From positions 1-62,781 of IMG/VR virus record IMGVR_UViG_3300036840_000070: 62,781 nucleotides of DNA; one strand, given 5' to 3'. Positions within the stretch are counted from its first letter, which is position 1, and each line of letters begins with the position of its first letter. This stretch comes from a virus. The notes beneath the pieces were generated by a model. It did not search any database and was not told the origin of the DNA. It was given only the letters and a program-made list of their open reading frames with translations. This document shows positions 23,344 through 62,428 of the stretch, one piece after another. The position numbers and the translations under genes are program-made.

Positions 23344-23383
23344 TGCACGGGTGCACGGCTGCACGAATGCACGGAGGGACGCA
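23344..23383 (+). repeat. Octamer array R2: five 8-bp units
   Basis: Octamers at 23344, 23352, 23360, 23368 and 23376: TGCACGGG, TGCACGGC, TGCACGAA, TGCACGGA, GGGACGCA. As in R1, the final A is the first base of the next ATG (23383), and the last two units make its GGAGGG ribosome-binding site. Confidence 0.9.
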
Positions 23384-29872: not shown

Positions 29873-30816
29873 TGGGTGAGATCTTCTCCAGGTATCCGAT
29901 CGCCACGTGGAAGGTCGGCACGCAGCCGCCGATCAGCTTCCCCGTGCTGGCCATCACCGAGACGGGGGGCAACCGCATCGTGCAACACGAGCGCCCCTTC
30001 CGCGATGGCGCGAAGCTCGACGACACGGGCGCGAAGGCGCGCACGTGGTCGTTCACGATCGTATTCAACAACAGCCTAGAGGAGGGCGTGCAGGATGGCG
30101 TGCCGCTCTACCCGCAGGTGCTGCGGCGCCTGCTGCGGAGCTTCGATCAGCATGAGACGGGCACGCTGACGCTGCCCACCGTGGGCGATGTGCGGGCGCG
30201 CGCGCAGGACTACACGCGCCGTGAAACGCCCGACGAAGATGACCAGGCCACGCTGGACGTGGTGTTCGTGGAAGACAACGAAGATGCGCTCGATCGCGCG
30301 CAGCTCAATCCGCCCGCCGTGGTCAGCACCGTGCGCAAGCTGGCTGAGCAGACCGTCTTCAGCGCGAAGAAGAGCGGCGTGTGGAGTGACGACCTGGCCA
30401 CGCTGCCCGAGGTGGCCAGCGAAATCGAAGGGCTGATCCGCGCCCCGGGGCGATCGGCGGCTGACCTGGGCGCGATGGTTCGCTCGCACCGCCGCGCCCT
30501 CGAGCGCCTCGCGAACGCGGCAGCCGAAGAAGCCGCCACGTCGGGAGGGCTGTTTGCCGATCCGCGCGGCAGCGAAACGCCGCGGCAGATCAACACGATG
30601 ATCGATCGCGAAGCGCAGGCCGAGGATGAACGCCTCGCGAGCCGCCCGCGCACGAAGGCGTTCGTGATCGATGTGGAGCGCACGTCCATCTTCGAGATCG
30701 CAGCGCGGCTCAATCAGGACGCGGAGGATCTGCTCGAGCTCAACAGCGCGCGCATCGATGACCCATTCCTCCTCGACCGTGGCATGGTGATCCGCGTGTT
30801 TGAGACCGCCGCATGA
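29872..30816 (+). CDS. DNA circularisation/tail protein (Mu gp43-like) with LysM-like end
   Basis: A 314-residue protein. The N-terminal region (VGTQPPISFPVLAITETGGN, RPFRDGAKLDDTGAKARTWS, FTIVFNN) follows the Mu N/gp43-type domain, which sits between tape measure and hub. The C-terminus (ERTSIFEIAARLNQDAEDLL, ELNSARIDDPFLLDRGMVIR) reads like a LysM-type peptidoglycan-binding domain. ATG overlaps the tape measure stop. Confidence 0.8.
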   Translation: MGEIFSRYPIATWKVGTQPPISFPVLAITETGGNRIVQHERPFRDGAKLDDTGAKARTWSFTIVFNNSLEEGVQDGVPLYPQVLRRLLRSFDQHETGTLTLPTVGDVRARAQDYTRRETPDEDDQATLDVVFVEDNEDALDRAQLNPPAVVSTVRKLAEQTVFSAKKSGVWSDDLATLPEVASEIEGLIRAPGRSAADLGAMVRSHRRALERLANAAAEEAATSGGLFADPRGSETPRQINTMIDREAQAEDERLASRPRTKAFVIDVERTSIFEIAARLNQDAEDLLELNSARIDDPFLLDRGMVIRVFETAA

Positions 30817-31961
30817 GCCGCAGCCCGCTGGACATCGTGAAGGTGAACGCGCTCGGCGTGCCCGAAGACGCGACCAATTTCGACTTCAATTTCCAAGACT
30901 GGACCAGCTTCCAGATCAAAAGCTCGATCGTGGCGCCCGCGGAGGCCAGCTTCGAGCTGGGTGACGATACGGGCTGGGATCGCGTGAGCCAGCTCTGCCA
31001 GCTGGGCGCGCAGTTCGTGGTGATGGTGGATGACCGCGCCCGCATGGTGGGGCGCGTCGAAGCGCTGAGCTCCGCCAGCGACGCGCGGCAAAGCACGGTG
31101 CAGTCCTTCGTGATCCGCACGAAGCTGTCGGACGCGCTGTATTCGTCAGCGCCGCAGGGCATCCGCCTGAAGCGCGCGTCCATCAAAGACTTCGTGCTCG
31201 CGTGCTACGAGGGCATCGGGCTGCGCGAGGCTGACTTCATCTTCGATGCTGACGTGAGCCGGGATCTGATGACCGGGCGCACGAGCAGCGGCAGCAAGAC
31301 CGCGCCTGAGCTCGAGCCGCTGACGGAGGAGCAGGCGAAGGTCAACCCGCCCGAGACGATCTACGCCGCGGTCGATCGGCACCTGCGCCGGCACGGGCTC
31401 TTGCACTGGGATGGCCCCGACGGACGCGTGGTGGTGAGCGCACCCGATGACCAGCAGGACGCGATCAGCAGGCTGCGCTCGCTCCGCCCGCCGCATGGGC
31501 AATTCAACAACGTGGTGAGCGTCGATCGGCAGCAGGACGTATCGCAGTCGCCCACCGTGCTGGGCGTGTTCGGCGTGGGCGGCGCGCGTGACTTCAGCAA
31601 GACGAAGGTGGCCACGACCCTCTTCAACGCTGACCTGATCACGCGGGGCTTTCGCCGCACGGTGGTGATCCTCGATGAAGCGCTGAAGACGAAGCGCGTA
31701 GCGGGCGCGCGCGCCAACCGTGAGTTTGCCCTGCGCAACCGCGGGCTCGATCGGCTGACGGTCGTCGTGGATGGGCTGTCGTATCGCGAGGGCGCGGAGC
31801 TGCTGCCGTGGTCACCGGACACCACGGTGGACGTGCTCATCGAACAGCTCGGCGGCGCGCTGGGCAGCTACTACGTGGAGGAGGTGGACATGCAGCGCAA
31901 CGCTTCCGCCAGCGACACCACGCGGCTGACGCTGGTGCGTCAGGGCGTCTGGGTGCTGTGA
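30813..31961 (+). CDS. Baseplate hub protein (Mu P/gp44-like)
   Basis: A 382-residue protein with the hub pattern: FNFQDWTSFQIKSSIVAPAE, DDRARMVGRVEALSSASDAR, later DRQQDVSQSPTVLGVFGVGG. Comparable to Mu gp44 / T4 gp27-type hubs that connect tube and spike. ATGA overlap with the gp43-like gene. A strong hairpin follows the stop, and the replicon is inserted before the spike gene. Confidence 0.82.
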   Translation: MSRSPLDIVKVNALGVPEDATNFDFNFQDWTSFQIKSSIVAPAEASFELGDDTGWDRVSQLCQLGAQFVVMVDDRARMVGRVEALSSASDARQSTVQSFVIRTKLSDALYSSAPQGIRLKRASIKDFVLACYEGIGLREADFIFDADVSRDLMTGRTSSGSKTAPELEPLTEEQAKVNPPETIYAAVDRHLRRHGLLHWDGPDGRVVVSAPDDQQDAISRLRSLRPPHGQFNNVVSVDRQQDVSQSPTVLGVFGVGGARDFSKTKVATTLFNADLITRGFRRTVVILDEALKTKRVAGARANREFALRNRGLDRLTVVVDGLSYREGAELLPWSPDTTVDVLIEQLGGALGSYYVEEVDMQRNASASDTTRLTLVRQGVWVL

Positions 31962-32130: not shown

Positions 32131-32451
32131 TCATCGAGGCGGCCGTCCGCGCGGAGGCGCCTGGCTGCCCGCAGGAGCGCCCTTCTGACCGGGGGCACCG
32201 ACGTGACGCCCGGCGGCTGGCGGCGCGCCAGGCGGGCGCTGGTGCAGGCCCTCACGCGGTGGCAGCTTCGGGGGGCGGTCGGCAGCTTCCTCGGCGGTCA
32301 GCGCGCTGCCGTCCCATAGCGCCCCGCAGTCGCGGCAGCGCTGGTGCTGGCTGCCCTGGGCATCGGGATCTCGGGAGCGCGGATCGTTCACCACCTCGAG
32401 CGCTTCGGAGCGGCAGTTGCCGCAGCACGGCCGCCACTCACCCGTTGCCAT
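32131..32451 (-). CDS. Zinc-ribbon protein divergent from the replicon
   Basis: A 106-residue protein starting MATGEWRPCCGNCRSEALEV; later CRDCGALWDGSALTAEEAAD completes the ribbon. The C-terminal third is Pro/Arg/Gly-rich low complexity. It is transcribed away from the iterons, where copy-control genes can occur. A plus-strand frame over the same bases is richer in Arg and less convincing. Role unknown. Confidence 0.5.
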   Translation of the reverse strand: MATGEWRPCCGNCRSEALEVVNDPRSRDPDAQGSQHQRCRDCGALWDGSALTAEEAADRPPKLPPREGLHQRPPGAPPAAGRHVGAPGQKGAPAGSQAPPRGRPPR

Positions 32452-32660
32452 GGCTGGCAGTGTGCAGCGCCGATCGCGACCTGACAACGCGTCCCGAGCC
32501 CCCGCGCGCGTGCCCGCTTCCATCCTGTCACGCGTCCAGATTTTAAAGCTCGGGTCCGGATCCGGATCAAGAGGGCGCTGACGTAGTGCCAAGACTTCGC
32601 GCGCGCGCCCGCGGAAATGAGGTGTTTTGGGCTGCGCCGTGCTCGGCGGGGCGCAGCTCT
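32452..32660. other. Intergenic region between zinc-ribbon gene and iterons
   Basis: Contains locally A+T-richer stretches (around 32538 and 32625) and a GCGCGCGCG run, but no gene I can support. It probably holds the promoter of the minus-strand gene and part of the origin. Confidence 0.4.
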
Positions 32661-32848
32661 GGTGGCTCAGAAGCCCAGCCCCGGTGGCTCAGAAGCCCAC
32701 CGAAAATGGGCCTGCGGTGGCTCAGAAGCCCAGCCCCGGTGGCTCAGAAGCCCAGGCTCGAAAATACCAGCCCCCGATCCCTCAAATGCCCAGCAGCAAG
32801 ATCCCTCAAATGCCCAAGGCGGCTCCGTGCCGGTGGCTCAGAAGCCCA
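32661..32848 (+). repeat. Plasmid-type iterons upstream of the TrfA-like gene
   Basis: Five perfect copies of GGTGGCTCAGAAGCCCA start at 32661, 32683, 32716, 32738 and 32832. Spacings of 22, 33 and 22 bases between the first four keep them on one helical face. Two copies of a related 17-mer, GATCCCTCAAATGCCCA, start at 32776 and 32800; both types share CTCA and GCCCA. Iterons ahead of an initiator gene define a plasmid origin. Apparent open frames through this region only translate the repeats. Confidence 0.92.
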
Positions 32849-32931
32849 GCCAAAAATGCCTGAAATGGTGTGAAATATACCCGCGGGCCAGCGGCCCTGG
32901 TAGATCGCAGGCCCACGCAATGGAGGCGCCC
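32661..32931 (+). other. Predicted plasmid replication origin (oriV)
   Basis: The seven iterons plus a short A+T-richer stretch (CAAAAATGCC ... GTGAAATATAC, 32851-32880) directly before the initiator gene. This is the usual layout of an iteron-controlled origin with autoregulated initiator expression. No exact DnaA box was found by eye. Confidence 0.75.
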
Positions 32932-33825
32932 ATGGCTAGGATTCCACCCGATCCCGTTATCGAAAGGCTGGCGAGCGAAGCCCAGGCTCAGCAGGAAGCG
33001 ATGCGCGCTGCGCTCGAGGAAGCCCGGGAACGGGCGCGCGTGTATCAGCTTGCCTTCTGGCCCGATCACGAGCGGGCCATGCCTGGTGACTTCATCGCGT
33101 GCGCCCTATTCACCGCGAGCCGAGCGACTGCCTTCGTCACGCGGTCACAGCTGGCCAGCATCAATGGCCTGAGCGTACTCTTCACCGGCAAGCGGCTGAC
33201 TCAGGTCCATGCTGACGTCTGGATGGGCATCATGCATCTAGCCCGCCAGCGGCGCGAAGGTGACGTGGTCTGGTTCCGCGATCGGCAACTGCTCGAGCTC
33301 ATCGGACGGCACACGCACCAGGGTCAACGTGAGCAGCTGAAGGACTGGCTATCGCAGCTCACGGCAACCGAGGTGCTCGTGCAGGATGACGTCCGAGGGC
33401 GCCGTTTCGGCGGATCGCTGCTGCCGTGGCGGGTCGAAGCGGACGCTGACGGGAACACGATCTATGCGGTCGACATCAGCCGCGAACTGGCAAAGCTGCT
33501 GTCCGAGCGCCAACCGATGATCGATTGGGAGCTGCGCAAACGGCTGCAAAACAAGCCGCTGGCGCTTTGGTTGCAGACTTACTTCGCGCGATTCAGCAAA
33601 CCGGTCTCGGTGGCGCAGCTGCACGCGCTGTCCGGATCCACTGCGCAGCTCAAAGAATTTCGGCGCAAGCTCACGCGCGCGTTGAAGGATCTGCAGGTAG
33701 CTGGCGGACCCAGCGCTGGCATCGAGCGCGGCGCCGACACCGTGGTGATCTTCCGCCCCGTGACGCGTCCGCGGCGCGTCCGCCATGAAGGCCAGGCGGT
33801 GCTGCCCTTCGCGAAGCCCCGGTGA
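32932..33825 (+). CDS. trfA: Plasmid replication initiator, TrfA family
   Basis: Binds iterons and opens the origin. A 297-residue protein from ATG 32932, which has GGAGG five bases before it (an in-frame ATG at 32920 is less likely). The central part matches TrfA: QLAFWPDHERAMPGDFIACA, LFTASRATAFVTRSQLASIN, GLSVLFTGKRLTQVHADVWM, then two winged-helix-like regions. It lies 80 bases after the last iteron. A plasmid initiator inside a tail operon is unusual. The identification is strong on pattern. Confidence 0.88.
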   Translation: MARIPPDPVIERLASEAQAQQEAMRAALEEARERARVYQLAFWPDHERAMPGDFIACALFTASRATAFVTRSQLASINGLSVLFTGKRLTQVHADVWMGIMHLARQRREGDVVWFRDRQLLELIGRHTHQGQREQLKDWLSQLTATEVLVQDDVRGRRFGGSLLPWRVEADADGNTIYAVDISRELAKLLSERQPMIDWELRKRLQNKPLALWLQTYFARFSKPVSVAQLHALSGSTAQLKEFRRKLTRALKDLQVAGGPSAGIERGADTVVIFRPVTRPRRVRHEGQAVLPFAKPR

Positions 33826-33840: not shown

Positions 33841-34620
33841 GTGAGCGCGCTCAATCAGTTCGTCGAATTCTGCAAGGTGGTGAGCTCGGCCGTGATCGGC
33901 TCGAACGCAGCCGTCGTGCAGAACGTGACCGGCGCGGGGGGCTTCGCCATGGACGAAGATGGCAATGTGACGGGCGAAGACGAATCGGACGACGGCGGGG
34001 AGCAGGGGCACGAGCAGGAAACCTTCGGCGCGCTGGGCATCGTGGCGCGCCCGCTGCCACCCGAAGGTGACCTATTCGCGGAGGCCCTGGCGCTGCGCAC
34101 CGATGACGGGCTGATCCCCTACGCCTATCGCGACCTGCGCCTGCATCGAGCGCTGAACCCTGGCGGGGATCCGGTGACGCCCGCCGAGGGGCAGATCATG
34201 CTGGTGGGCTACGGAGGCGCCTTCCTCTCGCACGCGATGACCGCGGGCAACGTGGGCTCGAGGCGCGGCAACGTGACCACGCTTTACGTGCCGTACGATT
34301 TCGACGGCTCGGGTGTGCCTCAGAAGGCGCACGCGATCAGCATCGATCCCACCACGGGCAACAGCTCGATCACCTTCGTGCACGGTGATGGCGTGTTCCT
34401 GAGCCTCACCGATGACGCGGGCGCGGGCGGGCCCGGCATCGTGTGGGCGATCGACGGCTCCACCTTCGGGCGCATCAGCGCCGGTGAATTCGTGGTGAAT
34501 GCGGCGAAGATCGCGCTCAAAGGCAACGTCTACCTGGGCGCGCAGGCAGAGGCTGGCGTGCCGCTGCTGCCCGGCGTGGCCTCACCGCCAGGCCCCAGCG
34601 TCTTCATCTCACCGGCGTGA
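33841..34620 (+). CDS. Baseplate spike/assembly protein (Mu gp45-like)
   Basis: A 259-residue protein: an acidic linker, then ALGIVARPLPPEGDLFAEAL, EGQIMLVGYGGAFLSHAMTA, and a beta-repeat-like C-terminus (FVVNAAKIALKGNVYLGAQA). This is the pattern of Mu gp45-type central spikes that pierce the outer membrane. In Mu it follows gp44 directly; here the replicon (32.1-33.8 kb) separates them. GTG start. Confidence 0.75.
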   Translation: MSALNQFVEFCKVVSSAVIGSNAAVVQNVTGAGGFAMDEDGNVTGEDESDDGGEQGHEQETFGALGIVARPLPPEGDLFAEALALRTDDGLIPYAYRDLRLHRALNPGGDPVTPAEGQIMLVGYGGAFLSHAMTAGNVGSRRGNVTTLYVPYDFDGSGVPQKAHAISIDPTTGNSSITFVHGDGVFLSLTDDAGAGGPGIVWAIDGSTFGRISAGEFVVNAAKIALKGNVYLGAQAEAGVPLLPGVASPPGPSVFISPA

Positions 34621-35135: not shown

Positions 35136-35175
35136 CGCACGTCCGTGCATCCGTGCATCCGTGCATAGGTGCAAC
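35136..35175 (+). repeat. Octamer array R3 (inverted orientation)
   Basis: Units at exact 8-bp steps from 35136: CGCACGTC, CGTGCATC, CGTGCATC, CGTGCATA, GGTGCAAC. Here the octamer is mostly reversed (CGTGCA). It leads directly into the Leu/Pro-repeat gene. Confidence 0.85.
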
Positions 35176-35177
35176 CG

Positions 35178-37754: not shown

Positions 37755-38066
37755 ATGTGGGCATCCTTCGCAGACTGGCTGTTTTCGCAGGCGCCCACGA
37801 TCACCGTGCTGGGGATCTGGGTGATCAGCTTGCACGTGATCTTGAGAGAACGCTCGAAGCGTATCCAGCAATTGGAGACGCGGAGCGACGCGCTATCCGC
37901 CTCATTGGCGGAGCTCGTGCAATCGAACTCGCGCGAGCGTGCGGAGCGAGTCACGCTGCAGATCACGAATCTAGAATCGCTGATGCGGAGCGCGTTCGAA
38001 ACGCTGCTGAGAGCATTGGAGCGCAGGCCACCCGCGTTGCTGAAGCGCTCGAGCGGGGGCCCGTGA
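37755..38066 (+). CDS. N-anchored coiled-coil membrane protein (holin- or spanin-like)
   Basis: Residues about 10-30 (APTITVLGIWVISLHVILRE) form one membrane span, followed by a long charged coiled coil (SKRIQQLETRSDALSASLAE). This is the architecture of inner-membrane spanins or of Mu-type lysis accessory proteins. It sits beside the receiver gene and close to the endolysin, so a lysis role is possible but not shown. Confidence 0.5.
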   Translation: MWASFADWLFSQAPTITVLGIWVISLHVILRERSKRIQQLETRSDALSASLAELVQSNSRERAERVTLQITNLESLMRSAFETLLRALERRPPALLKRSSGGP

Positions 38067-38557
38067 GCGAAGGCAAGCCGCTGGTGCTGGTGGTGGAGGA
38101 TGACCGCCAGGTGCAGCGGATCGTGCATCGCTTCCTCGAGCGGGCCAGCTACGACGTGGTGCTGTGCATGGACCTCGACGAGGTGGTGGCGCAGCTGGAC
38201 GCGGGCGTGGCGCCCGCGCTGGTGCTGTGCGACTGGACGCTGCCGGGCATGACGGGGCGGGCGGTGGCGCTCACCGTGCGGCGCCGCCTGCCGGGCACGC
38301 CGGTCCTGTACATGAGCGGCTTTGAGGAGATCGAGGGCATCGATCCGAGCGAACCGCTGTTGCGCAAGCCCTTTCGTGGCGATGAGCTGGTGGCCGTGGT
38401 GCGGCGCGTGCTCGAAGCAGGCACCATCGACGTGCTGCTGGGCGACGAAGCGCGCCACGCGCCGCGGGCTGACGTGAGCGGACAGCACCGCATCGTGACC
38501 GTGAGCGCTGACGAGCTCACGCGCGCCCGCGAGCAGACGCGCCGCCGCCCGCGCTAG
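38063..38557 (+). CDS. CheY-like response regulator receiver protein
   Basis: GTG start. A 164-residue protein with all receiver residues: the acidic pair at D13/D14 in VVEDDRQ, phospho-acceptor D57 in LCDWTLPGMTG, S85 in LYMSGFEE, and K102 in LRKPF. The receiver fills residues 7-120; the basic 40-residue tail matches no output domain. Host-derived signalling domains are rare in phages. Overlaps the endolysin stop by four bases tail to tail. It might intercept host phosphorelay signals; the target is unknown. Confidence 0.88.
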   Translation: MSEGKPLVLVVEDDRQVQRIVHRFLERASYDVVLCMDLDEVVAQLDAGVAPALVLCDWTLPGMTGRAVALTVRRRLPGTPVLYMSGFEEIEGIDPSEPLLRKPFRGDELVAVVRRVLEAGTIDVLLGDEARHAPRADVSGQHRIVTVSADELTRAREQTRRRPR

Positions 38558-46138: not shown

Positions 46139-46195
46139 GCACGGTGCTACACGGTGCACGGTTGCACGTATGGCCGTTTGCACGTATGCACGGCA
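46139..46195 (+). repeat. Octamer array R4, upstream of parA
   Basis: TGCACGGT at 46139, then after a 1-bp slip, units at 46156, 46164, 46172, 46180 and 46188: TGCACGGT, TGCACGTA, TGGCCGTT, TGCACGTA, TGCACGGC. It ends 16 bases before the parA ATG and so covers the likely promoter. Candidate centromere and operator. Confidence 0.88.
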
Positions 46196-46211: not shown

Positions 46212-46946
46212 ATGTTTAGCGTTGCGGTGCTGCACCAGAAGGGCGGCAGCGGGAAGACCACGCTCGCGATCTGCCTGGCGGCGGCGGCTCACCTCGAGGG
46301 CCACCGGACCACGCTCATCGATCTAGATTCGCAGGCCAGCGCGCTGGCGTGGAGCGCTGAGCGCCCAGAAGGCTCACGCCTGGCGGGCATCAGCGTGGCC
46401 CTGGCGGTAGCGCCCAGCCACCGCAAGGTGCCGCTCTCGAGCCTGCGCGATCTGACCGCGGCCTATGACGTGGCCATCCTCGATGGTCCCGCGCGTGAGC
46501 CGGGCATCACGCGCAGCGCCGCAGCCTTCGCTGACGTGGCGCTGGTGCCCATCGCCCCGGGCCCGACCGATCTGTGGTCCGTGCGCGATACGGTCGAATC
46601 GCTGGACGCGGCCGATGAGGTGCGCGCAGATCTGGGGCTGCCCCCCGTGCGCCGCGCCTTCGTGGTGAACGCCGCGCGCAAGGGCAGCGTGCTGCAGCGC
46701 GAGGCGCAGGCGGAGATTGAAGCCAGCCTCGGCGACTGCCTGGGCACCGTCCATCACCGCGTTTCGCTGCCGGCTGCGCTCAGCCGTGGCGAGACCGTGC
46801 TCACCCTGCCCGTGGCCACGGAGGCCGCGGTCGAAATCACGCGCCTGTGGCGCGCACTGAAAGGAGCCTATGCCGCTCAGCTCAAAGCCGAAGCACCGCG
46901 CCGCCCGCGAGGCGGAGGTCGAAGAAACGTCGCGCTTCGCCGCTGA
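46212..46946 (+). CDS. parA: ParA-type partition ATPase
   Basis: Segregates low-copy replicons by ATP-driven binding to the nucleoid. A 244-residue protein with deviant Walker A KGGSGKTT (10-17), Walker A' LIDLDSQ (35-41) and Walker B VAILDGPA. No N-terminal DNA-binding domain, so it is the small type (Ib). AAAGGG precedes the ATG. The small RHH gene overlaps its end, as in other ParA-RHH pairs. Direct evidence that the circle is maintained as a plasmid. Confidence 0.9.
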   Translation: MFSVAVLHQKGGSGKTTLAICLAAAAHLEGHRTTLIDLDSQASALAWSAERPEGSRLAGISVALAVAPSHRKVPLSSLRDLTAAYDVAILDGPAREPGITRSAAAFADVALVPIAPGPTDLWSVRDTVESLDAADEVRADLGLPPVRRAFVVNAARKGSVLQREAQAEIEASLGDCLGTVHHRVSLPAALSRGETVLTLPVATEAAVEITRLWRALKGAYAAQLKAEAPRRPRGGGRRNVALRR

Positions 46947-47055
46947 CATTCCGAAGCGCATCCACAAAGCGATCCGCATGAAGTGTATCGAGCTCGACGT
47001 GGACCAGCGGCAGCTGGTGCTGATGGCCCTGCGTGAGCAGTACGGGATCAAATGA
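46870..47055 (+). CDS. Ribbon-helix-helix partition partner (ParB/ParG-like)
   Basis: A 61-residue protein. A basic, flexible N-terminus (MPLSSKPKHRAAREAE) is followed by TSRFAADIPKRIHKAIRMKC and then IELDVDQRQLVLMALREQYG: one beta strand and two helices of an RHH fold. Overlaps parA by 77 bases; AAAGGAG lies before its ATG. The flexible N-terminus is typical of partners that stimulate the ParA ATPase. It would dimerise and bind the TGCACGNN octamers. Confidence 0.8.
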   Translation: MPLSSKPKHRAAREAEVEETSRFAADIPKRIHKAIRMKCIELDVDQRQLVLMALREQYGIK

Positions 47056-47333
47056 GCACCAGCACCACCACCATGACCGAAGACGAGCGCGCGATCTGGC
47101 GGGCTGCCTACGCGGCCGCGTTCGTGAGCGATCTGCATTCCACCGTAGGCTTTTACCTCGAGCAGAGAGCGCCGAGCGCGTTCGATCGCGCGATGCAGAG
47201 TATTGCCGCCGAGAACGCCATCGGCATCGCTGACGCGGCGGTGCGCCGGCTGCGGCAATGGCGCGAACGGGAGCAGCCGCTGGCGGGCGCTGAGCTCGGC
47301 AGCTGGCCGAAGGACTGGGAACCGGACGAATGA
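47052..47333 (+). CDS. Third gene of the partition operon, 93 aa
   Basis: MSTSTTTMTEDERAIWRAAY, mostly helical (FDRAMQSIAAENAIGIADAA). ATGA overlap with the RHH gene, and array R5 starts at its stop. No family recognised. Helical segments and the charged end could mean a DNA- or protein-binding accessory. Confidence 0.6.
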   Translation: MSTSTTTMTEDERAIWRAAYAAAFVSDLHSTVGFYLEQRAPSAFDRAMQSIAAENAIGIADAAVRRLRQWREREQPLAGAELGSWPKDWEPDE

Positions 47334-47378
47334 ACGAATGCACGGACGGCCGTATGCACGTCCGTGCATCCGTGCTGA
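47331..47378 (+). repeat. Octamer array R5, downstream of the par operon
   Basis: Units at 47331, 47339, 47347, 47355, 47363 and 47371: TGAACGAA, TGCACGGA, CGGCCGTA, TGCACGTC, CGTGCATC, CGTGCTGA. The orientation flips after the fourth unit, giving the palindrome ATGCACGTCCGTGCAT. It lies between converging genes. Confidence 0.85.
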
Positions 47379-51859: not shown

Positions 51860-52828
51860 GTGAAGACTTGGATGCGCTTCGCCGATGACTTTCTCGATCA
51901 CCCTAAATTCGTGCGCGCCGATCGCTTGGCACCTTCGCGCGCGGTGCACCTGTACGTGGGCTTAGTCAGCTACTCCAAACAGCAGCGCAGCGATGGCGTG
52001 GTGCCCATCGACATGCTGCCGCAGGTGCGTGGTCCAGCGGCGCGGTGGAAGATGAAGACGCTGGACGTGCTGGTGCAGGTGGGCCTCGTCGACCGCATCG
52101 ATGAGCGCACCCTGCGCGTGCATGACTTCCTCGATTGGAATCCATCGCGGGCGTACATGGAGGCACGAGCGGCTGCTCGGAAGGCGTCGGCCAACGGGAA
52201 AAAAAACAAGCTCGAGTCGGGCGCTCGAGAACGACCCGATCGCGAGGTGATCGAAACCCGATCGCAAGGTGACAACGATCCGATCGCAAAGCGATCGCAA
52301 AGCGATGGACATGTAGTCCCGAGCGAAGTCATTGACTTAGCTTCGCGACGGGCAACAGCTGCTCACGGGCGCGCGCGTGGTCTAGATATAGATGGAGATG
52401 GAGATAGATCCCCCCAGAGCCCCCCCCAGCTGGCGCTGGCGGCTGAGCCCGAAAAAAAATCTGGACAGCGACGGTCCGCTGGCGGCAGGCTGGGTGCCAC
52501 CGAATGCCCCGCTGACTTCGCCCCGAATGACTCGACGCTGGCCAAAGCCACGTCGCTCGGATTCAGCGAAGAACGCGAGCTAGCCGTCAGGGAATACTTC
52601 ATCGACTGGTGGCGATCGAAGGGGATCCGCCGCAAGGACTGGCACGCCACCTATCGCTGTTGGCTGCGCACGGAAGCGAAGAAGCTGGGTCTCAAACCGC
52701 TGCGCCGCGATGAGCAGTGGAAGCGCCACCAGGCTGAGATGCGCCGTGCAACACGCCCGCTTGCTGCGCACGAGATAGCGCCCGTTCCCGCTGATTTCGA
52801 GTCGAAGCTGGGGTCGCTCTTTGGCTGA
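51860..52828 (+). CDS. Replication initiator, phage O-like, with internal origin
   Basis: A 322-residue protein, GTG start with CAGGAGGGC before it. The N-terminal winged-helix-like domain (MRFADDFLDHPKFVRADRLA, LYVGLVSYSKQQRSDGVVPI, VQVGLVDRIDERTLRVHDFL) is typical of phage O/DnaD-type initiators. A low-complexity linker encoded by the iterons follows, then a C-terminal domain (EREYFIDWWRSKGIRRKDWH type) that probably loads the helicase. Next gene: DnaB-like helicase, as in lambdoid O/P-type modules. Confidence 0.82.
   Translation: MKTWMRFADDFLDHPKFVRADRLAPSRAVHLYVGLVSYSKQQRSDGVVPIDMLPQVRGPAARWKMKTLDVLVQVGLVDRIDERTLRVHDFLDWNPSRAYMEARAAARKASANGKKNKLESGARERPDREVIETRSQGDNDPIAKRSQSDGHVVPSEVIDLASRRATAAHGRARGLDIDGDGDRSPQSPPQLALAAEPEKKSGQRRSAGGRLGATECPADFAPNDSTLAKATSLGFSEERELAVREYFIDWWRSKGIRRKDWHATYRCWLRTEAKKLGLKPLRRDEQWKRHQAEMRRATRPLAAHEIAPVPADFESKLGSLFG
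52236..52308 (+). repeat. Iterons inside the O-like gene (predicted lytic origin)
   Basis: CCGATCGC begins at 52236, 52258 and 52280, an exact 22-bp period; the first two units extend to CCGATCGCRAGGTGA. Two further partial units at 11-bp steps follow (CGATCGCAAAG at 52292, CGATGG at 52303). In-phase iterons in the linker-coding region of an initiator gene are how the lambda origin is built. A-rich AAAAAAAACAAG (52199) and an A+T-richer stretch (52381-52410) lie on both sides. Confidence 0.8.
52381..52413 (+). other. Candidate unwinding element next to the O-gene iterons
   Basis: TCTAGATATAGATGGAGATG continuing into GAGATAGATC is markedly A+T-richer than the surroundings and lies 75 bases after the iterons, still inside the gene. 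Its role as the melting site is inferred. Confidence 0.4.
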
Positions 52829-54320
52829 GAGCAGAGCGGCGCGCGCGTCACAGAACACGCGCGCCGCAGCACCACCACCACGCGCGCTGCCCGCAGCCAC
52901 CACCGAGCGCTCGGGCATCAGCGGTCCACCGCACGATGCCGATGCGGAGGCCGCGGTGCTGTCCGCTGTCCTGCTGTCGCCCGCGCTGCTCGATGATGTG
53001 CGCGAGCACCTCGAGCCAGCCGACTTCTACGCCATGCAACATCGTTGCGTCTTCGAAGCGATGATCGCGATCGAAGCCGCAGGCGTGGCGCTGGACGTGC
53101 TCACCCTCGCCAACGAGCTGAAGGCGAAGAACCGTCTGCAGCAGGTGGGCGGGACGCCCTTCCTCGCGCAGCTGAGCGACGCCACGCCCAGCGTTGCGAA
53201 CGTGATCGAACACGCGCGCATGGTGCGTCGCTTCGCGGCGCTGCGCCGTGCGGGGCAGGCGCTGCGCGCGCTGGCGGCGGAGTCATCGCTGCCCGAGACG
53301 CGCGGTGACGTGGAGGGCTTCCTGCAGCGCTGTGAGGCGGAGGTGTTTGCCTTCAACGGCAAGGCCACGGCACGCGACACGGCCAGCACGATGCATGAGC
53401 TCATCGCCACGGCAGCCACCGAGCTCGATCCCAGCAAGCCACGCGAAGCGCGCGGCATCTCCACGGGGCTGGTGGATCTGGACGAGCTGTCGCTGGGCTT
53501 CATCCCGGGTGAGGTCTGGTATCTGGCGGCGCGCCCCGGCATGGGCAAGACCGCGCTGGCGCTAGGCATGGCTGCCAGCGTGGCGAAGAGCGGGCGGCAC
53601 GCGGTGTTTTTCTCGCTCGAGATGACGCGGCGTGAGCTGCGCGATCGCATCATCTCGGCGGATGCGGAGGTGCCCTACCGTGCGCTGCACAAGCGCGAGC
53701 TTTCCCATTCGCAGTGGGGGCAGGTGGTGGCGTCGTTCCACCAGCTCGCGCAGCTGCCGCTCATGCTCGATGACGACGGGCTGCTCACGCCCTCGCGCCT
53801 GCGCTCACGCACGCGCCGGCATGCGACGAAGCTGCGCGTGAGCCACCCGGGCAAGCTCGGCCTGGTGGTGGTGGACTACGTGCAGCTGATGGAGGATGAT
53901 CCGCGGGGCGGACGCGGCTCGAACCGTAACGATGAGCTCGAGCACATCAGCCGCTCGCTGAAGCTGCTGGCGCGCGAAATGGGCGTGACGGTGCTGGCGC
54001 TGGCGCAGCTGAACCGCGAACAGAAGAACCGCGCTGACAAGCGCCCCCTGCTCACGGACCTGCGGGGCTCGGGCGCGTTCGAGCAGGACGCTGACAAGGT
54101 GCTCTTCATCCACCGCGATGAGGTGGAGGGCGAGGAGCGCGGCGAGGCCGAGCTGATACTGGCGAAGGGGCGCAACGCCGGCACCGGCAAGACCATCGTG
54201 CGGTGGCAGCCGTGGTGCATGCGCTTCCGCGATTCGGAGCGCCGGCAGCAGGCGGGCTTCGATTGGCAGGGCCTGATGGATGACGAGGGCGAGCCGCCGC
54301 CGATGAGCGACTACGAGTAG
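52821..54320 (+). CDS. dnaB: Replicative DNA helicase, DnaB family
   Basis: A 499-residue protein with a TTG start overlapping the O-like stop. N-terminal domain: DAEAAVLSAVLLSPALLDDV, HRCVFEAMIAIEAAG. RecA-like domain: Walker A RPGMGKTA (238-245), Walker B VVVDYVQLM (349-357), later LTDLRGSGAFEQDADKVLFI with the arginine-finger region. Unwinds DNA at the fork as a hexamer. A phage-owned DnaB beside an O-like initiator makes lytic replication largely independent of the host loader. Confidence 0.93.
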   Translation: MAESRAARASQNTRAAAPPPRALPAATTERSGISGPPHDADAEAAVLSAVLLSPALLDDVREHLEPADFYAMQHRCVFEAMIAIEAAGVALDVLTLANELKAKNRLQQVGGTPFLAQLSDATPSVANVIEHARMVRRFAALRRAGQALRALAAESSLPETRGDVEGFLQRCEAEVFAFNGKATARDTASTMHELIATAATELDPSKPREARGISTGLVDLDELSLGFIPGEVWYLAARPGMGKTALALGMAASVAKSGRHAVFFSLEMTRRELRDRIISADAEVPYRALHKRELSHSQWGQVVASFHQLAQLPLMLDDDGLLTPSRLRSRTRRHATKLRVSHPGKLGLVVVDYVQLMEDDPRGGRGSNRNDELEHISRSLKLLAREMGVTVLALAQLNREQKNRADKRPLLTDLRGSGAFEQDADKVLFIHRDEVEGEERGEAELILAKGRNAGTGKTIVRWQPWCMRFRDSERRQQAGFDWQGLMDDEGEPPPMSDYE

Positions 54321-61075: not shown

Positions 61076-62428
61076 GTGGGGCAAGCGAAGAGCAGCAAGG
61101 GCGGCGCTGCACGTGCAGCGCGTGGCAAGGGCAAGGCTGAGGGCGCGGGCAAGGGCAGCGCGCCGCCGCCATCGCTAGGGCTGGTGGAGGGCCTGGTGCC
61201 CAGCAGCGATCCCACCGCCCCTGACTTCGCCTGGTGGCCCATCGATCGCGTGAGGCCCTGGGTGCAGAACCCTCGCAAGAACGCGCGCGCGGTGCCGAAG
61301 GTAGCCGACAGCATTCGCACCTTCGGCTGGGGCAGGCCGCTCGTGGTCAACATGTGGCCCGGGTGTGAGGGTGAGCTGATCATCGGGCACACGGCGTGGC
61401 TGGCCGCGCAGGAGCTGAGCCTCGAGCGGGTGCCGGTGCGCATCCGCAAGATGGACCCTGCAGCCGCGCACGCGCTGGCGATCGCGGATAACAAGCTGGG
61501 TGAGATCAGCGACTGGGATCCCGATGAGCTCGGGCGCATCGTGGGCTCGGGTGAGATCAGCGCAGCGCACCTCGAGGTGGCGGGCTTCAGCGCGGCGGAG
61601 CTGCGCGCGCTGGACGGTCATCCGCAGATGGACGATGACGACGTGCCCGCACCGCCCGCGGTGCCCATCACGCAGCCTGGTGATCTGTGGCTGCTGGGTG
61701 AGCACCGCCTGCTCTGCGGTGACAGCACGCGCGCTGACCACGTGCAGCTGGTGCTCGCTGGCGGGCAGCCCGAGCTCATGGTGACGGATCCGCCCTATGG
61801 CGTCAGCCTGGACAGCACGTGGCGCGACGAATTCTCACCGGTGAAACAGAAGCACACGGGCAAGATCAGCAACGATACCCGGAACGATTGGACGGAGGCG
61901 TGGGCCCTCTTCAAAGGAAGCGTCGCGTACGTGTGGCACGCGGGCGTCTACGGTGCCGAGGTGGCCGCGCATCTGGCGCGCACGAAGCTGTTCGTGAGGC
62001 AGCAGATCATCTGGGCGAAGGCGGCGCTGGTCATGAGCCGCGGGAACTACCACTGGCAGCACGAGCCGTGTTGGTATGTGGTGCGCAAGGGCAGCACCGC
62101 GAATTGGATCGGTGGGCGTAAGCAGACCACGCTCTGGCAGATCCAATCGAAGGTGGGCTTCACGCAGAAGGGCAACGAGGACATGGACACCACGCACGGC
62201 TCGCAGAAGCCGCTGGAATGCATGGCCCGCCCGATCCGCAACCACCGCGGTGACGTGTACGATCCCTTCATGGGCAGCGGCACCACGCTGATCGCAGCGC
62301 AGAAGCTCGGGCGGCGGTGCTACGGGCTCGAGCTCGAGCCGGCGTATTGCGACGTGATCGTGGCGCGGTGGAAGGCGCTAACGGGCGGTGAGCCCCGGCG
62401 CATCGTGGCGGGTGAGGCTGCGGCGTGA
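61076..62428 (+). CDS. ParB-domain DNA methyltransferase
   Basis: A 450-residue fusion. After a basic Gly/Ala/Lys N-terminus, residues 52-140 form a ParB/sulfiredoxin-like domain (WWPIDRVRPWVQNPRKNARA, then ELIIGHTAWLAAQELSLERV). Residues 205-435 form a beta-class amino-methyltransferase with TDPPYG (DPPY 238-241) and SAM-binding DPFMGSGTT (396-404). Such fusions are common in phages and modify adenine or cytosine. The GTG start is preceded by a likely leaderless promoter. Its stop overlaps the D12 gene start. Confidence 0.88.
   Translation: MGQAKSSKGGAARAARGKGKAEGAGKGSAPPPSLGLVEGLVPSSDPTAPDFAWWPIDRVRPWVQNPRKNARAVPKVADSIRTFGWGRPLVVNMWPGCEGELIIGHTAWLAAQELSLERVPVRIRKMDPAAAHALAIADNKLGEISDWDPDELGRIVGSGEISAAHLEVAGFSAAELRALDGHPQMDDDDVPAPPAVPITQPGDLWLLGEHRLLCGDSTRADHVQLVLAGGQPELMVTDPPYGVSLDSTWRDEFSPVKQKHTGKISNDTRNDWTEAWALFKGSVAYVWHAGVYGAEVAAHLARTKLFVRQQIIWAKAALVMSRGNYHWQHEPCWYVVRKGSTANWIGGRKQTTLWQIQSKVGFTQKGNEDMDTTHGSQKPLECMARPIRNHRGDVYDPFMGSGTTLIAAQKLGRRCYGLELEPAYCDVIVARWKALTGGEPRRIVAGEAAA

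Follow-up and report, generated by a model that had tools for sequence, protein, structure and literature searches.

A TrfA-type gene and its direct repeats lie in the tail region

The stretch of DNA analyzed here, which we call the window, comes from environmental DNA and is an entire viral record, G000, with a length of 62,781 bases. It encodes a phage with a Mu-like head and a contractile tail; its virion genes include those for a Mu-type portal, an F-like protein, a terminase, a major head protein, a sheath, a tape measure, and a baseplate. The closest cultured phages have only distant portal similarity to it, with less than 30% identity among the matches listed. Between the baseplate hub gene and a conserved phage gene there is a slot that is occupied by a gene for a TrfA-like protein, with an array of direct repeats in front of it. 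The features of this slot are the following.

30813 to 31961, plus strand: baseplate hub gene, left border of the slot (phrog_177; lies next to the right-hand neighbor gene in distant relatives)
32541 to 32566, plus strand: upstream element TTTTAAAGCTCGGGTCCGGATCCGGA, common to the window and the related genome G001 by pairwise alignment
32661 to 32677, plus strand: iteron 1, exact copy of GGTGGCTCAGAAGCCCA
32683 to 32699, plus strand: iteron 2, exact copy of GGTGGCTCAGAAGCCCA, 22 bp from iteron 1
32716 to 32732, plus strand: iteron 3, exact copy of GGTGGCTCAGAAGCCCA, 33 bp from iteron 2
32738 to 32754, plus strand: iteron 4, exact copy of GGTGGCTCAGAAGCCCA, 22 bp from iteron 3
32776 to 32792, plus strand: variant iteron GATCCCTCAAATGCCCA, first copy, exact
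32800 to 32816, plus strand: variant iteron GATCCCTCAAATGCCCA, second copy, exact
32832 to 32848, plus strand: iteron 5, exact copy of GGTGGCTCAGAAGCCCA
32849 to 32880, no strand: candidate unwinding element between the last iteron and trfA, assigned by position only
32932 to 33825, plus strand: TrfA-family replication initiator, 297 aa (Pfam TrfA, tblastn, relatives over the cut-off, RctB fold match)
33841 to 34620, plus strand: conserved phage gene, right border of the slot (59 to 61% identical in the related genomes G001, G004, and G008)

We searched the whole window for the 17-bp sequence GGTGGCTCAGAAGCCCA with up to three mismatches. There were five matches, all exact, where 0.26 was expected, and none of 100 shuffles reached five. 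The variant GATCCCTCAAATGCCCA is exact at both of its positions, with 0.09 expected in the window. An unbiased search for clustered 7-mers gave just seven clusters in the window, among them this array, and the same search recovered the corresponding arrays in two relatives. An earlier note on this DNA had described five perfect 17-bp iterons and two variants directly upstream of an initiator gene. This observation is real: the copies are exact and beyond chance, and the array ends 83 bp before the ATG at 32932. The repeats had also been called helically phased. That description fits the first four copies, which are spaced by 22, 33, and 22 bp, but not the rest of the array, because iteron 5 sits 94 bp past iteron 4 and the variants, at intervals of 38, 24, and 32 bp, fall off a clean helical grid.

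The candidate unwinding element is the A+T peak of the region, with about 57% A+T compared with about 32% for the whole window. No DnaA box with up to one mismatch was found near 32.4 to 33.0 kb, and no A+T-rich 13-mer array of the RK2 oriV type was noticed in the segment, which has just one short A+T-rich stretch. The claim of a complete iteron-type replicon therefore overreaches: the repeats and the TrfA-like initiator are there, but DnaA boxes and RK2-like 13-mers were not found. Their absence rules out only a strict RK2-type oriV, as these elements are not obligatory in every iteron replicon. A promoter scan, which covered sigma-70 types, gave no consensus match. Upstream of the iterons there is also a small minus-strand frame (32252 to 32434), and cysteine-rich stretches resembling it occur at the same place in G001, G004, and G008.

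The trfA frame runs from the ATG at 32932 to 33825, with a GGAGG ribosome-binding site just 5' of the ATG. The sequence GGAGGCGCC ahead of this ATG is also found in G001 and G004, and the TrfA proteins of all four genomes begin with MA. The right border gene begins 16 bp after trfA. Farther into the tail region, the frame at 37757 to 38557 encodes a response-regulator receiver domain (Pfam PF00072, E = 2.5e-13), which is unusual for a phage and to which no match was found in G001.

The encoded protein is related to the TrfA initiator family

The earlier note had proposed a search against the TrfA profile, and the result bears out the assignment in substance. The window protein matches Pfam PF07042 (TrfA) with E = 1.2e-4 and 21.7 bits, just below the cut-off of 22, and its second Pfam match is RPA, replication initiator protein A (E = 0.0016). 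The collinear orthologues in G001 (31.8 bits) and G008 (38 bits) are both above the cut-off, and the one in G004 has no Pfam TrfA match. By tblastn, the window protein matched 501 plasmid records; in the best of these matches (E = 2e-30), 87% of the query aligned with 35% identity. All 40 of the matches listed from these records carry a trfA annotation.

An AlphaFold model built from nine viral sequences has a pLDDT of 87.6 and a pTM of 0.81. In a fold search of the PDB at E ≤ 0.001, this model matched only three chains, all of RctB (domains 2 and 3), with a TM score of about 0.5 and a best E of 2.4e-6. RctB binds iterons and initiates the replication of Vibrio cholerae chromosome 2. The resemblance of the predicted model to RctB is a match at the level of the fold only, and the PDB sequence searches found no relative. 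Together, the model and the RctB match support a tandem winged-helix initiator fold. The BFVD fold search gave only marginal matches, the best of which was a phage protein whose name refers to plasmid replication (E = 2e-3). The 501 plasmid records and a predicted fold like that of an iteron initiator agree with the earlier view that the protein core follows the TrfA family, and assignment of the 32932 to 33825 product to that family is supported.

The window TrfA also matches PHROG 26900, a family with no assigned function (E = 1e-10). TrfA relatives thus exist, unnamed, among phage proteins, and the match suggests that PHROG 26900 contains TrfA-like initiators.

The repeat array is conserved in kind and divergent in sequence

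Three viral genomes are collinear with the window: G001 (64,907 bases), G004 (66,696 bases), and G008 (66,144 bases). In comparisons with them, the map wraps around the contig ends. Terminal repeats of 87 bp in G004 and 141 bp in G008 indicate circular assemblies; the records of the window and of G001 do not close into circles. Each of the three has a TrfA relative, 29 to 56% identical, between the baseplate hub gene and the counterpart of the 33841 to 34620 gene.

Direct repeats lie immediately 5' of the TrfA gene in all four genomes. Their sequence is specific to each genome, and their spacing is 22 or 33 bp: the array is GGTGKCYCAGAAGC in G001 (about 22 bp), AATTAGCGCAGGGTCCCCCCC in G004 (22 bp), and CGTACCAGCCCTGCCGCATCG in G008 (about 33 bp). 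An array that is conserved in kind and diverges in sequence is as expected of an initiator and binding sites that would co-evolve. In having seven direct repeats beside an initiator gene, with arrays likewise in three relatives, the locus resembles an iteron replicon, in which several repeats of about 17 to 22 bp are expected. The 22-bp spacing also occurs at the trfA genes of four plasmids and of other viral contigs.

The slot is not always filled in this way. In the distant relatives G010, G011, and G012, whose sheaths are 45 to 49% identical, the flanking genes are nearly adjacent, with about 40 bp between them, and TrfA was not detected. In the close relative G009, the slot is occupied by a gene on the opposite strand for a 411-aa helix-turn-helix protein, and both TrfA and ParA are absent. 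This gene (locus L046, 17098 to 18333, minus strand) has two TGTCAGGGGT-type repeats within it, and its product may be another kind of initiator that takes the place of TrfA there. Thus, among five close relatives, TrfA and ParA are both present in four and both missing from G009; the genomes are few and share descent, so this pattern does not amount to a statistical test.

Other viral contigs with TrfA are G002, G003, and G007 (loci L028, L029, L030, L033, and L034). G007 is a myovirus-like contig of a different lineage, with terminase, portal, sheath, and baseplate genes. G003, also of a different lineage, has an O-like initiator and anti-repressor-like genes. Both have repeats of about 22 bp near trfA. 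G002 has a ParA gene adjoining trfA, and a tail fiber gene.

Two further observations concern the window and G008. The window encodes a ParB-N domain fused to an N6/N4 DNA methylase (61076 to 62428) that is 81% identical in G008, the highest identity noted between the two. The 8-mer GCTCGAGC has 68 counts over both strands of the whole window, with palindromic sites counted twice, compared with 12 expected from a simple Markov model, and it is enriched in G008 too.

A partition module and a second replication module accompany the replicon

A candidate partition operon lies about the ParA gene, and related repeat arrays are found elsewhere in the window.

46147 to 46192, no strand: candidate centromere, TGCACG repeats upstream of parA
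46212 to 46946, plus strand: ParA partition ATPase, 244 aa (phrog_164, 1.5e-33; Pfam CbiA/AAA_31)
46870 to 47055, plus strand: 61-aa ribbon-helix-helix-like protein, candidate centromere-binding partner, at the same place in four genomes
47331 to 47376, no strand: candidate centromere, TGCACG repeats downstream of the par operon
871 to 951, no strand: TGCACGNA array with an 8-bp period, possible further partition site
23344 to 23381, no strand: TGCACGNA array between called genes, possible further partition site
35142 to 35177, no strand: TGCACGNA array between called genes, possible further partition site

The gene for the 61-aa protein overlaps the end of parA and has a conserved DIP-x3-H core. 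Its product has no Pfam match, and the ribbon-helix-helix fold is suggested by its residue pattern. ParA, the small ribbon-helix-helix-like gene, and repeats flanking the operon are present in all four genomes, and the repeat sequences differ among them. The small ParA, the conserved 61-aa neighbor, and the flanking repeats may form a type Ib partition system, which has a small ParA lacking an N-terminal helix-turn-helix, a small ribbon-helix-helix partner, and repeats on either side of the operon; no profile supports the ribbon-helix-helix fold of the 61-aa protein.

Searched in the window with up to two mismatches, TGCACGNATGCACG gave 26 matches compared with 6.1 expected, and these concentrate at about 871 to 951, 23344 to 23381, and 35142 to 35177 and on both sides of parA. 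The TGCACGNA arrays, which include the two at the par operon, lie mostly between called genes. Spread over the genome as they are, they are candidates for distributed partition sites.

A second set of replication genes follows farther along the window.

51860 to 52828, plus strand: lambda-O-like replication initiator, second replicon (phrog_2447, 3.3e-18, "replication initiation protein")
52234 to 52306, no strand: 22/11-bp repeats inside the O-like gene, candidate lytic origin, with mid-gene repeats in four genomes
52956 to 54320, plus strand: DnaB-like replicative helicase (phrog_19, 6e-89; Pfam DnaB_C, 1.7e-75)

The O-like genes of G001, G004, and G008 likewise contain mid-gene repeats, with a period of 10 to 33 bp. 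The window, G001, and G008 have an A+T-rich peak beside these repeats, and DnaB accompanies the O-like gene in all four genomes. Judged by this arrangement, the O-like gene with its internal repeats looks like a lambda-type lytic origin.

The phage probably persists in the host as a plasmid

None of the eight genomes searched has a match to the tyrosine or serine recombinase profiles PF00589 and PF00239, both of which were detected in control genomes. A CI-type repressor (HTH_3) was not found in the window. For a host or lysogen, we ran pattern-based scans with TrfA and tail-sheath queries on one genome per bacterial or archaeal species, and they returned no relative; the alignment of distant TrfA proteins (A1) was too diverse for pattern scans. 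The window has the virion genes expected of a complete phage, and the four genomes carry TrfA and ParA and have no recognizable integrase, as phage-plasmids do. Replication and partition modules, together with the missing recombinase match, point to a plasmid prophage. The earlier note had concluded that the phage persists as a plasmid and is not integrated. ParA, the ribbon-helix-helix-like gene, and flanking repeats in four genomes, the lack of an integrase, and two circular assemblies all argue for this, and from the gene content we regard it as probable.

In phage P1, an iteron replicon (oriR/RepA) maintains the plasmid prophage, and the lytic origin, oriL, lies within a replication gene (RepL). 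P1 has a ParAB partition system, and chromosomal integration is not needed. We propose, with a probability of about 0.7, that the window phage has a two-replicon design like that of P1, in which TrfA and the iterons maintain a plasmid prophage and O and DnaB serve lytic growth. The scenario that we infer covers binding, replication, autoregulation, lysogeny, and the division of labor. TrfA monomers would bind the seven direct repeats, open a nearby A+T-rich stretch with or without host DnaA or HU, and then load a helicase. In lysogens, the phage genome would be a low-copy circular plasmid that is replicated via TrfA. TrfA would probably act as a repressor of its own gene as well, because the repeats adjoin trfA directly upstream. 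ParA, the ribbon-helix-helix-like protein, and the TGCACG arrays would segregate the plasmid copies. Lytic growth would use the separate replicon of the O-like gene with its internal repeats and DnaB, much as P1 divides the work between oriR and oriL.

The alternative that survives best, which we consider unlikely, is that the TrfA-iteron unit is a second lytic origin, which might, for instance, serve an early theta phase that precedes a change to another mode. The phage would then be virulent, and the par genes would serve some other end. It is consistent with this alternative that no CI-type repressor was recognized in the window and no lysogen was found, and the short distance from trfA to the conserved tail-region gene makes late cotranscription possible. 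However, a lytic-type module, the O-like gene with its repeats and DnaB, is already present elsewhere in all four genomes, and the joint presence or absence of TrfA and ParA in the five close relatives fits plasmid maintenance.

It is considerably less probable that the unit is a competition device, which would act by incompatibility, through titration or exclusion, on resident TrfA plasmids or on related phages and would not be the phage's own origin. The repeats do differ among the relatives, as if selected for different incompatibility groups, and the variant iterons have a CCCTCAA-TG core in common with the iterons of the IncP-1 plasmid R751. But ordinary origins are equally expected to show repeat divergence, replication requires just such a pairing of an intact initiator with an array of its own, and exclusion alone would not need par genes. 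A recent plasmid insertion or an assembly artifact with no role in the phage is rejected as largely refuted: the slot that is empty in distant relatives and differently filled in G009 does indicate that the unit was gained or lost, but it recurs in one position on four independent contigs, with 29 to 56% identity, which makes it old and maintained, and the flanks are collinear throughout.

Relation to known replicons and significance

The IncP-1 plasmids RK2 and R751 likewise combine a TrfA-family initiator with direct repeats of about 17 bp. The core of the window variant iteron, CCCTCAAATG, resembles the R751 iteron core, CCCTCAACTG, although R751 TrfA is only about 20% identical to the window protein. 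In IncP-1, oriV is distant from trfA, whereas the window repeats are directly upstream of it. The window replicon also differs in that no DnaA boxes were found and no conjugation genes were seen, and in that it is carried on a phage genome. Closer in sequence are the TrfA proteins of Polaromonas, Azotobacter, Allochromatium, and Methylomonas plasmids, which are 27 to 34% identical to the window protein by alignment. As in the window, these plasmids have 22-bp-spaced repeats beside trfA. Theirs, however, are downstream of the gene and have other sequences, and the elements are annotated as plasmids.

P1 is analogous in its working but differs from the window phage in initiator family, partition type, and virion genes; in place of ParAB, the window has a small ParA with a small ribbon-helix-helix-like protein. 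Lambda O has its origin within the gene, and the window O-like gene likewise has mid-gene direct repeats. Unlike lambda O, it has its own DnaB helicase and coexists with a TrfA replicon.

Four TrfA queries against the 50,697 phage records of INPHARED gave no match at E ≤ 0.01. In a literature search that covered few subscription papers, and is weak evidence on this point, no report was found that pairs TrfA with phage-plasmids; a study of glacial phage-plasmids reported ParA/ParB and left TrfA unmentioned. The discovery of phage-plasmids has depended largely on homologues of P1 genes, repA and repL among them (PMC11652158), and phages that have a different replicon can therefore easily escape notice. 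Phage-plasmids are already known as a class, and what this probable member would add is a TrfA-iteron replicon.

The TrfA replicon in phages ties IncP-like plasmid control to phage lysogeny. Phage TrfA is a simple marker of an overlooked group of phage-plasmids, and it makes testable how a phage shares out its replication between an origin for plasmid upkeep and one for lytic growth. In a broader proposal, to which we give even odds, these genomes would represent an environmental phage-plasmid lineage in which a slot in the tail region is filled by an IncP-like TrfA-iteron unit that is exchanged among relatives. They would be dual-origin phages whose lysogenic copy control works as in TrfA plasmids. 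If this is true, then the TrfA replicon, which is also found on at least two further viral contigs from different lineages (G003 and G007), would be a currency shared by plasmids and phages.
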